Origin: Pedobacter sp.
GTDB lineage: Bacteria; Bacteroidota; Bacteroidia; Sphingobacteriales; Sphingobacteriaceae
Length of the DNA stretch: 33,147 bases
Direction: 5' to 3'
NCBI GenBank assembly: GCA_031179845.1
Contig: JAPSHM010000008.1
Location: forward strand, 1-33,147
A model generated the notes under the pieces. It ran no database searches. It saw only the letters and a program-made list of their open reading frames with translations, and was not told where the DNA came from. The translations under genes were made by a program, and so were the position numbers. Positions 1 to 1,224 of the stretch are shown piece after piece; position 1 is the first letter of the stretch; the number at the start of each line of letters is the position of its first letter.

Positions 1-28
1 ATTAGTTCTTTAACATTTGCTTATACTC

Positions 29-138
29 TGTAGGGTGGTGAAATTGGCAGACGCACCTCCTTGTCTCGGTGGTGGAGAATATGGAAAACCCGTAAGGGCT
101 AACTACTCCTTGAAGGTTCGACTCCTTCCCCTACAGCA
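29..138 (+). tRNA. Class II (long variable arm) tRNA with anticodon GTC (Asp), first copy
   Basis: The cloverleaf can be drawn by eye: acceptor TGTAGGG (29-35) with CCCTACA (129-135), D stem GTG (38-40) with CGC (52-54), anticodon stem 56-60/68-72 with one T-T mismatch, anticodon loop TTGTCTC (61-67), and T arm GAAGG-TTCGACT-CCTTC (112-128). The anticodon at 63-65 is GTC, which reads Asp codons. The D arm resembles tRNA-Leu. The variable arm is about 38 nt, closed by GGAG (74-77)/CTCC (106-109), with a small hairpin CCC-GTAA-GGG (89-98) at its tip. The discriminator is G136, followed by CA only, so CCA is incomplete. Ordinary tRNA-Asp is class I with a short variable loop, so this is anomalous. 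An automated caller might label it Leu, Asp or undetermined. Structure is confident; charging identity is inference. Confidence 0.75.
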
Positions 139-205
139 ATTGAGCAGTAAGATAAATCAACCTAAACCAATCTTACTGCTTGATCAAATTAGTACTTTAA
201 ATGAA

Positions 206-350
206 TGTTGGGTGGTGAAATTGGCAGACACGCCTTCTTGTCTCGGTGGTGGGGATAAATGGACAAACGCAGTTTATGGGTTGACCACAAATTAATTTTT
301 GAACTGTAGCTAACTACCCCTTGGAGGTTCGACTCCTTCCCCAACAGCCA
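206..350 (+). tRNA. Class II tRNA with anticodon GTC (Asp), second copy, extra-long variable arm
   Basis: This is a paralogue of the tRNA 70 bases upstream. Acceptor TGTTGGG (206-212) pairs with CCCAACA (340-346), D stem GTG (215-217) with CAC (229-231), anticodon loop TTGTCTC is 238-244 (anticodon GTC 240-242), and the T arm is GGAGG-TTCGACT-CCTTC (323-339). Discriminator G347 is followed by an encoded CCA (348-350). The variable region is about 73 nt, closed by GGGG (251-254)/CCCC (317-320), with an inner hairpin CAGTTT (270-275)/GAACTG (301-306). Relative to copy 1 the acceptor pair 4-69 changes from A-T to T-A and a variable-stem pair from A-T to G-C. These compensatory changes argue that both RNAs are under structural constraint and are not decayed pseudogenes. 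Confidence 0.75.
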
Positions 351-382
351 GTTTTTTTATGAATAATAAGTTAGTTAAAAAC

Positions 383-414
383 GAGTAATCTTGGATGAGA
401 TTACTCTTTTTTTT
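383..414 (+). terminator. Rho-independent terminator of the tRNA pair
   Basis: A perfect 9-bp stem, GAGTAATCT (383-391) and AGATTACTC (398-406), with loop TGGATG is followed by eight T (407-414). It lies 33 bases after the second tRNA and should end that transcript. The TTG in the stem/loop (391-393) and the sequence just after the T tract could also serve as promoter boxes for the next gene. Confidence 0.9.
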
Positions 415-421
415 ATATTGG
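391..421 (+). promoter_or_regulatory. Possible promoter of the Dabb gene embedded in the preceding terminator
   Basis: TTG at 391-393 and TATATTGG at 414-421 are 20 bases apart. This approximates the Bacteroidota pattern (-33 TTTG/TTG, 17-23 bases, -7 TAnnTTTG) with one deviation in the -7 box. The start codon at 426 lies only four bases after the box, so the mRNA would have almost no leader. This is inference from motif spacing. Confidence 0.35.
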
Positions 422-425
422 CTAA

Positions 426-749
426 ATGAATATGAAAACTTTCCCCATAGTGCACCATGTGTTCTTCTGGCTTAAAAACCCTGGATCCGAAGTTGAACGT
501 GATCAGCTGATCGCTGGCATCAAAAAATTAAAAGGTATCGAAACGGTTAACAATCTTCATGTAGGAATTGCTGCAAAAACAGAGAAACGTGACGTTATCG
601 ACAACAGTTGGAGCGTTTCTGAGCTAATGTACTTCAAAGACCTTAAAGCTCAGGCGATCTACCAGTCGCACCCGCTACACCTTGAATTTATTGAAAATTG
701 TGGACACTTATGGAGCAAAGTGCTGGTATATGATATCGAAGAAGTGTAG
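426..749 (+). CDS. Dabb (stress-responsive alpha/beta barrel) domain protein
   Basis: This 107-residue protein looks like a single Dabb ferredoxin-like domain. The opening PIVHHVFFWLKNP is the family's first strand with its His residues, followed by helix EVERDQLIAGIKKLKGIETV, a central strand NLHVGI, and an ending YQSHPLHLEFIE that matches the usual YxxHPxHxxF region. Its length suits one domain, and such proteins usually dimerise. Dabb proteins are small cytosolic proteins, some induced by stress and some acting as cyclases or monooxygenase-like enzymes; the substrate here cannot be read from sequence. ATG 426 starts MNMKT; ATG 432 is an alternative two codons in. It sits alone between two terminators, so it is probably monocistronic. 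Confidence 0.85.
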   Translation: MNMKTFPIVHHVFFWLKNPGSEVERDQLIAGIKKLKGIETVNNLHVGIAAKTEKRDVIDNSWSVSELMYFKDLKAQAIYQSHPLHLEFIENCGHLWSKVLVYDIEEV

Positions 750-773
750 TAGTGTAAAGATTAGATAGGATAC

Positions 774-807
774 AAAACAGGCCCGGCAATTTTGCCGGGC
801 CTGTTTT
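774..807. terminator. Strong bidirectional terminator hairpin
   Basis: A perfect 16-bp inverted repeat (774-789 with 792-807) has a GC-rich core GCCCGGC and A/T flanks AAAA...TTTT. The T tract works on the plus strand for the Dabb gene and the complementary one on the minus strand for the receptor remnant, whose stop is at 851. Confidence 0.9.
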
Positions 808-850
808 CATTGATAACCTTGTTGTTTTTAACTAGGGCTGTCTAATGGGA

Positions 851-1224
851 TTAAAAGGCATATCTAATGCCAATTTGACCTTGATACGGTGAACCTGTTG
901 GAATGGCAACACCGGCATTATTCACGTTGTAAACGAATTGATTGCTTGTCTTGTCAAATGAATTTACACTATAAAGCCCCTGATTTCCCAACGACTCATT
1001 AACACCCCAATTTTTGTTGATCAGGTCGGCTACATTGAATAGATCGCCTGAAACTTCCAGGCTGTGACCTTTATAAAATTTAAACTTCTTACCCCCGGAA
1101 TTGGCTTTTTCTGTTCATCTGTTATCGTTCCTGTAATCGAAGTCCGCGTTGTTTGGGCGCTGAGTTCAAAATTGGCAAAAAGACCAATTAGAATGAGTAC
1201 TGCTGCCGATCGTAAGTTTTTCAT
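851..1224 (-). pseudogene. Remnant of a TonB-dependent outer-membrane receptor (ends kept, middle deleted)
   Basis: The minus strand starts at ATG 1224 with a signal peptide (MKNLRSAAVLILIGLFANFELSAQ) and the first strand of a carboxypeptidase-regulatory-like domain (SITGTITDEQKKPIPG), typical of Bacteroidota TonB-dependent receptors. Near 1090 the reading jumps. In another frame the DNA continues with KGHSLEVSGDLFNVADLINK, then NWGVNESLGN, and ends SPYQGQIGIRYAF followed by TAA at 851-853. The end, including the terminal Phe of outer-membrane barrels, is a receptor C-terminus. A full receptor is about 900-1100 residues, so nearly all the plug and barrel is missing and the two ends are out of frame. 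In the first frame translation stops at 1030. This cannot encode a working receptor, though the signal peptide could still be expressed. Confidence 0.85.

Follow-up and report, generated by a model that had tools for sequence, protein, structure and literature searches.

A conserved family of class II tRNA-like RNAs with a GUC anticodon in Bacteroidia and phages, and its possible role in asparagine synthesis

Two tandem RNA genes near one end of a 33,147-nucleotide stretch of Pedobacter sp. DNA (contig JAPSHM010000008.1, assembly GCA_031179845.1; the whole stretch is called the window here) are members of a conserved, structured RNA family. We propose that RNAs of this family may be dedicated, decoding-impaired carriers that AspRS would charge and on which GatCAB would amidate the amino acid, such that asparagine would be made without an asparagine synthetase, a reading in which our confidence and our doubt are evenly balanced.

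RESULTS

The window contains two tandem class II tRNA-like RNAs. Counted from acceptor U1 to C74, copy 1, with a short variable domain, lies at 29..137 and copy 2, with a long one, at 206..348, both on the plus strand. The copies score 121.8 and 128.2 bits, respectively, against covariance model R1, values to be read with regard to the fact that both copies were among the sequences that seeded it. Each has a 7-bp acceptor stem, a Leu-type D arm, an anticodon arm, a long variable region, a 5-bp T stem, and G73. The anticodon loop TTGTCTC (G34 U35 C36, U37, C38) was placed by alignment at 61..67 (plus strand) in copy 1 and by sequence and alignment at 238..244 (plus strand) in copy 2. Sequence and alignment also placed the variable domain of copy 1 at 73..111 (plus strand), with a 4-bp outer stem, the inner hairpin CCCGTAAGGG, and CTAAC. 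The variable domain of copy 2 (250..322, plus strand; variable region of about 73 nt) is built of an outer stem GGGG/CCCC, a mid stem, a GACAAA..CTAA internal loop, an inner helix, and an apical motif, GGGTTGACCAC, at 278..288 (plus strand), which also occurs in other families and in phages. A sequence-only reading had described both RNAs as class II, with a Leu-like D arm, a long variable arm, and GTC within the TTGTCTC loop, and had noted compensatory changes between the copies, A-T to T-A in the acceptor and A-T to G-C in the variable stem; that description proved accurate, and both changes are real.

A terminator scan indicated an intrinsic-terminator-like hairpin followed by T8 at 383..406 on the plus strand, which may be the end of the RNA unit; window positions 1-900 contain three terminator-like sites compared with a mean of 0.5 in shuffles, and a Dabb-domain gene at 426-749 lies 3′ of the hairpin. 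A scan of the plus strand of window 1-900 for sigma-70-type promoters found none. Another contig of the same genome (C325; genome G000) overlaps copy 1 over window 1-128 and extends upstream to an Lrp/AsnC gene, which is on the opposite strand and starts about 150 nt from the RNA. The assembly breaks inside copy 1, and copy 1 was therefore counted twice in genome searches.

ARAGORN called neither copy in the window, Rfam at gathering level matched neither RNA over the whole window, and no Rfam family specific to these RNAs was found. When the search was confined to 450 nt, the Rfam tRNA model gave copy 1 a score of 32.1 bits, treating 37 nt of the variable region as an insertion. A tmRNA identity was rejected, as an anticodon arm with a covarying stem is present and neither ARAGORN nor Rfam gave a tmRNA match in the window. 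A search of open-access literature by title and abstract found no description of the RNA.

The RNA is widespread in the class. A degenerate pattern was present in 45 of 47 other genomes of the same genus, in at least two places in 42 of them, and also in other families; the two congeners without it, G006 and G036, are 84% and 81% complete, respectively, and the match in one further genome (G050) was a chance match. A search of 395 class genomes with a covariance model built from 16 sequences detected the RNA in 68 genomes from 19 families, counted by hand, at 72.9 bits or above, the matches listed reaching down to about E 1.6e-11. All RNA-bearing genomes scored at least 86 bits except G207. 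The next score, 68.3 bits, belonged to a core-only variant in G105, which stands outside the 68, and matches at or below 64.1 bits, about 80-88 nt long, were taken as ordinary tRNAs by length rather than by individual inspection. Of 148 genomes sampled from the phylum with classes pooled, 14 matched at E 1e-14, and each of the 14 belongs to this same class. A plasmid search with the pattern gave no match. The four copies in genome G389 (L100-L103) are spread over three contigs, each at a place of its own.

Covariation supports all five stems. In alignment A2 (93 rows), 98.8% of pair cells were standard and 22 of 24 pairs changed on both sides, counts favored by the fitting of A2 to the model and drawn from rows that include six ordinary tRNAs, the source of the changes at pairs 1-72 and 2-71, and one truncated sequence. 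None of 500 shuffles of A2 reached any of five covariation measures, and slid structures paired at 53-61%. In A1, a MAFFT alignment of 16 family rows, pairing was 97.1%, ten pairs changed on both sides, and four of the five measures exceeded all 500 shuffles, the fifth being reached in 8 of 500. The branch of acceptor and T stem is 7/5, with every pair formed in the 16 A1 rows and 99.8% and 100% of cells paired in A2. Anticodon stems vary with compensation (CCCTC/GGGGG, CCCGC/GCGGG, CCGCC/GGCGG, and CCAGC/GCTGG), and the stem of the window genus, CCTCC/GGTGG, carries a T29.T41 mismatch that is found in both window copies. A standard Leu anticodon, for which a check had been proposed, was not found in the loop; an ordinary Leu anticodon or an intron there was rejected, because loop length does not vary from 7 nt and the anticodon stem shows covariation.

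The variable domain has a structure of its own, with a 4-bp outer stem, a 5′ bulge, a 3-bp mid stem, an RAYAAA/CUAA internal loop, and an inner helix, and many family members carry GGGUUGACCAC within it. The mid stem was fully paired in 55 of 70 motif-bearing sequences compared with a shuffle mean of 14.6 and maximum of 31, a count that leaves out 41 of 111 dereplicated rows that did not fit the regular expression. Across 63 rows, the variable region ranges from 38 to 123 nt. The variant in G105 (L309 738-814) is a minimal relative, with a variable region of about 7 nt, the triplet AUC, and a downstream hairpin with a T run; it still has U1-A72, G2-C71, G73, U35, C36, C38, and U37 without the variable domain. 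The presence of the RNA in nearly all congeners and, by covariance model, in 19 families, together with covariation beyond that of shuffles, indicates that the family is not a product of chance. Thus, the earlier suggestion of tRNA-like RNAs with a conserved fold is upheld by family relatives and covariation, and the relatives sought in related genomes exist and show compensatory changes.

The RNA keeps AspRS signals and a GatCAB-positive first pair. Positions were counted over 63 rows dereplicated at 85%, of which 8 came from the pattern search or the window, one from a phage, and 54 from the model search. U1-A72, G2-C71, G73, C74, U35, and C36 were each present in 63 of 63 rows, G34 in 60, and C38 in 61, the covariance model having itself been seeded with GTC loops. 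Position 33 was U in 51 rows and G or C in 12, and position 37 was U in 55, G in 4, C in 3, and A in 1. G10 was rare (11 of 63), and position 20a in Leu-type numbering, two bases past G18-G19, was A in all 63 rows and never U. Five rows combine U33 with a purine at 37, one of them with the ordinary Asp loop CTGTCAC. Triplets other than GUC were CUC (L122 and L125), UUC (L097 and L134), and the AUC of G105. The CUC and UUC of L122, L125 (family f49), and L097 are Glu-type triplets, and the role of the RNA may have changed in f49, because the f49 genome G235 also has AsnA. Among 56 distinct viral sequences of at least 135 nt, 54 keep U1-A72, G2-C71, G73, and C74 while pairs 3-7 vary, although most viral rows came from a pattern that fixes GTCTCG; the exceptions are L199, with a 5′-end misfit, and one copy in L137, with C73.

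According to passages of PMC9976931, Asp identity consists of G73, G34, U35, C36, and C38 plus G1-C72 and G2-C71, and GatCAB amidation of Asp-tRNA-Asn needs U1-A72, with G1-C72 and U20a acting as antideterminants. The nucleotides of a GatCAB substrate were found in all 63 rows, with U1-A72 and neither G1-C72 nor U20a. Among tRNA-Asp features, G34, U35, C36, C38, and G73 were kept, and G1-C72 and a conserved G10 were not. The sequence-only reading had listed G73, G34-U35-C36, C38, G10, and G2-C71 as AspRS identity bases, and the list stands except for G10. The decoding loop of U33 and purine 37 is not a feature of the family. Counted position by position, the AspRS signals are therefore kept and the decoding features relaxed, and, by the rules in those passages of PMC9976931, the RNA joins AspRS anticodon and discriminator signals to a GatCAB-positive first pair. 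As judged from sequence, this combination is in neither tRNA-Asp nor tRNA-Asn.

Comparison with individual tRNAs bore on three ways in which the RNA might be charged. The family resembles bacterial tRNA-Leu in class, Leu-type D arm, U8-G9, and the 2-nt 3′ base of the variable arm but differs in the GUC anticodon, in a variable region of 38 to 123 nt instead of about 15 nt, and in G73 (63 of 63) instead of A73; charging by LeuRS is thus unlikely, as had been argued. With bacterial tRNA-Asp it shares G34-U35-C36, C38, G2-C71, and G73, and the anticodon stem of L089 is identical to that of tRNA-Asp in the near-complete congener G428. The differences from tRNA-Asp are U1-A72 in place of G1-C72, a mostly pyrimidine position 37, the class II body, and the absence of a conserved G10. 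An alternative Asp tRNA or a missense tRNA active in decoding, as the sequence-only reading had entertained, would account for G34-U35-C36 in 60 of 63 rows and for U33 in 51, but it is barely credible and finds no support, because 58 of 63 rows have a pyrimidine and 5 a purine at position 37, 12 rows lack U33, and the search for an ordinary tRNA-Asp found one in G428, with G1-C72 and the loop CTGTCAC.

Two unpaired bases lie at the base of the variable arm, a geometry of tRNA-Leu, and the anticodon is conserved though SerRS does not recognize the anticodon; both points speak against a Ser-charged class II RNA of the allo-tRNA or Sec type. The class II body with its long variable arm and G73 would fit such an RNA, and allo-tRNAs with GUC exist (Mukai 2017, via passages of PMC7609411). 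Charging of allo-tRNAs is of the Ser type, and their acceptor branch is 8/4 or 9/3, a fold that was rejected here as the family branch is 7/5. Moreover, the family has U1-A72 where bacterial Ser identity includes C72 (passages of PMC9976931), and we regard the likelihood of Ser charging as close to negligible.

The RNA adjoins an Lrp/AsnC-type gene in bacteria and is carried by phages. In 36 of 65 loci, an Lrp/AsnC-type gene lies upstream, always divergent, 92-441 nt from the best-scoring copy; the next commonest neighbor gene clusters occur in at most 6 of the 65. This distribution bears on a reading in which Asp-RNA would donate its amino acid to a transferase (lipid, wall, or peptide) without amidation. 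AspRS-type identity with relaxed decoding positions would suit a donor, and other systems have dedicated tRNAs that do not decode, such as the donor tRNA-Gly of staphylococci, which resembles the family as a dedicated non-decoding isoacceptor and differs from it in amino acid, fold, and partner enzymes. Besides Lrp, however, any one gene is shared by at most 6 of 65 loci, smaller clusters being unannotated, and amidation is indicated by the invariant U1-A72 and the association with GatB; a donor role is quite improbable.

The RNA was found in 82 viral records (81 model-confirmed contigs, including L137, plus LR756504.1), some of which are perhaps the same virus. IMG/VR gave 84 stretches with the pattern, and the viral counts draw on 80 of the 84. 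In INPHARED record LR756504.1, an uncultured phage of 636 kb, the RNA lies within a tRNA cluster, and at least one ordinary tRNA was near the RNA in 57 of 79 viral loci and at least three in 27. A same-strand gene follows at a median of 430 nt downstream in 37 of the 79 loci, and the one representative scanned was a terminase large subunit. A phage packaging RNA was nevertheless set aside, as the bacterial copies that were read adjoin Lrp or other genes.

Palindromes (GCGCGC, GTGCAC, GCATGC, and GCTTGCAAGC) were observed directly after GGGTTGACCAC in viral copies (L041, L136-L213). A palindrome of at least 6 nt follows the motif in 28 of 38 phage copies versus a shuffle mean of 10.3 and in 10 of 25 bacterial copies versus 6.8, and it might be an RNA dimer site in phage copies. 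A second tRNA-like RNA was also seen in phages, with an acceptor of AGTCAGG/CCTGACT or near it, a Leu-type D arm, an ordinary T arm, and a variable interior in which no clear anticodon arm was discerned by eye (L136 1958-2061, 10174-10281, 10395-10518, and 10651-10809; L137 5273-5435; L204 5999-6120; L208 3000-3089).

One role that draws on these features is that of a regulatory tRNA-like RNA, uncharged or charged, serving as an AspRS decoy or as a sensor with Lrp, with the variable domain as its active part. The conserved variable domain with its covarying 3-bp stem and apical motif, the Lrp neighbor, and the palindromes in phage copies are consistent with such a role. G105, however, keeps the acceptor and loop nucleotides without the domain, the domain is short in many members, and the dependence on GatB would go unexplained, so that we find a regulatory RNA distinctly unlikely.

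Occurrence of the RNA is linked to GatCAB and to the lack of conserved asparagine synthetases. GatCAB presence was scored by gatB, which was found in 68 of 68 RNA-bearing and 228 of 327 RNA-less genomes (Fisher p 3e-10, without phylogenetic correction). Thus, none of 99 gatB-less genomes carries the RNA, and gatB is not sufficient for it, given the 228 genomes that have gatB but no RNA. In a hand-chosen set of 40 genomes (26 RNA-bearing and 14 RNA-less), AsnRS was present in all 40, bacterial AspRS above the cut-off in 39, and GlnRS in 20 of 26 RNA-bearing and 10 of 14 RNA-less genomes. In the 30 chosen genomes with both AsnRS and GlnRS, decoding needs no GatCAB because both enzymes are present, and there gatB was found in 20 of 20 RNA-bearing versus 1 of 10 RNA-less genomes (p 7e-7, with no ancestry correction). 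Four of the five gatB-bearing RNA-less genomes of the 40 lack GlnRS, which would explain gatB in those four, but not in the fifth, G434.

AsnA was found in one of 26 RNA-bearing genomes (G235, triplet CUC) and in 3 of 14 RNA-less ones (G087, G303, and G165). Five genomes, all RNA-less and gatB-less (G087, G303, G192, G068, and G112), share an AsnB of 555-563 aa with 72-85% identity among them, which is presumably a housekeeping enzyme. Predicted AsnB-like proteins are present in 23 of 26 RNA-bearing genomes and count against the carrier reading. Those from ten RNA-bearing genomes (10 of 20 regions retrieved) share no more than 32% identity with the conserved AsnB and look like paralogues, the remaining matches being judged by profile coverage and length alone. 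With AsnA and the conserved AsnB taken together, 1 of 26 RNA-bearing versus 6 of 14 RNA-less genomes had either (p 0.004, with no ancestry correction). In RNA-bearing genomes G048, G347, and G337, AsnRS is present and searches found no match to AsnA (E 1e-30) or AsnB (E 1e-60). Within family f1, five genomes tested from genera g1 and g34 have the RNA and GatB and neither AsnA nor the conserved AsnB; three tested from genera g33 and g35 have AsnB, two of them also AsnA, and neither the RNA nor GatB. AsnRS needs free asparagine, and genomes without an asparagine synthetase must therefore obtain asparagine elsewhere. Against the carrier reading, G434 has GatB, AsnRS, and GlnRS with no AsnA or AsnB match and no RNA detected, G237 and G290 have GatB with neither the RNA nor an asparagine synthetase, and RNA-less G123 has neither GatB nor an asparagine synthetase match.

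In an AspRS alignment of 13 RNA-bearing and 7 RNA-less genomes, no column fully separated the groups, and AspRS thus did not visibly change with the RNA. Seven of the 13 have RDLG, which we take to be the discriminating form of E. coli, and six have RDKG, RNKG, or RKFG. These data bear on the main rival to an asparagine carrier, in which asparagine would be made on ordinary tRNA-Asn by a non-discriminating AspRS and GatCAB, as in Bdellovibrio, and the RNA would travel with GatCAB in another role. That route needs no special RNA, and in its favor tRNA-Asn of G428 and G000 has U1-A72 and G73. Passages of PMC4206432 demonstrate it in a genome that has a single AspRS beside AsnRS, GlnRS, and GatCAB, and they count 18 genera, Bacteroidetes among the clades, with AsnRS, GlnRS, and GatCAB and no asparagine synthetase. 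The missing separating column and the RDLG of seven RNA-bearing genomes argue against it, however, and it leaves the kept combination of U1-A72 and AspRS signals in the RNA unexplained; we judge it unlikely but a contender to be taken seriously.

DISCUSSION

The analysis added to the sequence-only reading an invariant U1-A72, a structured variable domain, phage copies, an Lrp neighbor, and a GatCAB link, and of these, the phage copies, the Lrp neighbor, and the GatCAB link point to asparagine synthesis. The kept and relaxed positions are those to be expected if selection had acted on recognition by AspRS and GatCAB rather than on decoding. As a carrier, the RNA would be loaded with Asp by an AspRS that reads the GUC/C38 anticodon loop, G2-C71, and G73. 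GatCAB would recognize U1-A72, meet neither G1-C72 nor U20a, and convert Asp to Asn on the RNA. In U1-A72, G73, G34-U35, and the passage from Asp to Asn that we infer here, the RNA is like tRNA-Asn, the known GatCAB substrate, and it differs in the class II body with a large domain, the relaxed decoding features, and C36 instead of U36, so that AspRS rather than AsnRS should recognize it. Against the carrier reading, G1-C72 is absent and G10 rare, and both are kept in bacterial tRNA-Asp.

Asn-RNA on the ribosome would misread Asp codons. Pyrimidine 37, the tolerated G or C at 33, and the bulky variable domain may bar it from the ribosome, and these features would be explained by the harm that an Asn-RNA with GUC would do there. 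Five members have U33 with a purine at 37, and exclusion therefore cannot rest on the loop alone. Asn would be freed from the RNA by hydrolysis or a putative deacylase and would then feed AsnRS. The divergent Lrp/AsnC-type gene may regulate the RNA by amino-acid supply, and an AsnC-type neighbor fits amino-acid control. Phage copies might raise the asparagine supply during infection.

Taken further, the family would be an asparagine synthetase built on RNA: a tRNA-derived molecule, widespread and outside translation, that offers AspRS and GatCAB a reusable scaffold for making free asparagine, is swapped for AsnA or AsnB, and is borne by phages as a metabolic RNA. We find this plausible but lean slightly against it.

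Whatever the mechanism, the family is a large group of structured RNAs that ARAGORN and Rfam at its gathering thresholds missed in the window. For the persistence of GatCAB beside AsnRS and GlnRS, passages of PMC4206432 suggest a non-discriminating AspRS or a vestige; the RNA offers a concrete candidate partner in Bacteroidia. tRNA-dependent asparagine synthesis is already known, and synthesis of free asparagine would go further. To our knowledge, no dedicated tRNA serves as a cofactor for the synthesis of a free amino acid. If the proposal is true, a tRNA would have taken on that function, and phages would carry such a tRNA.
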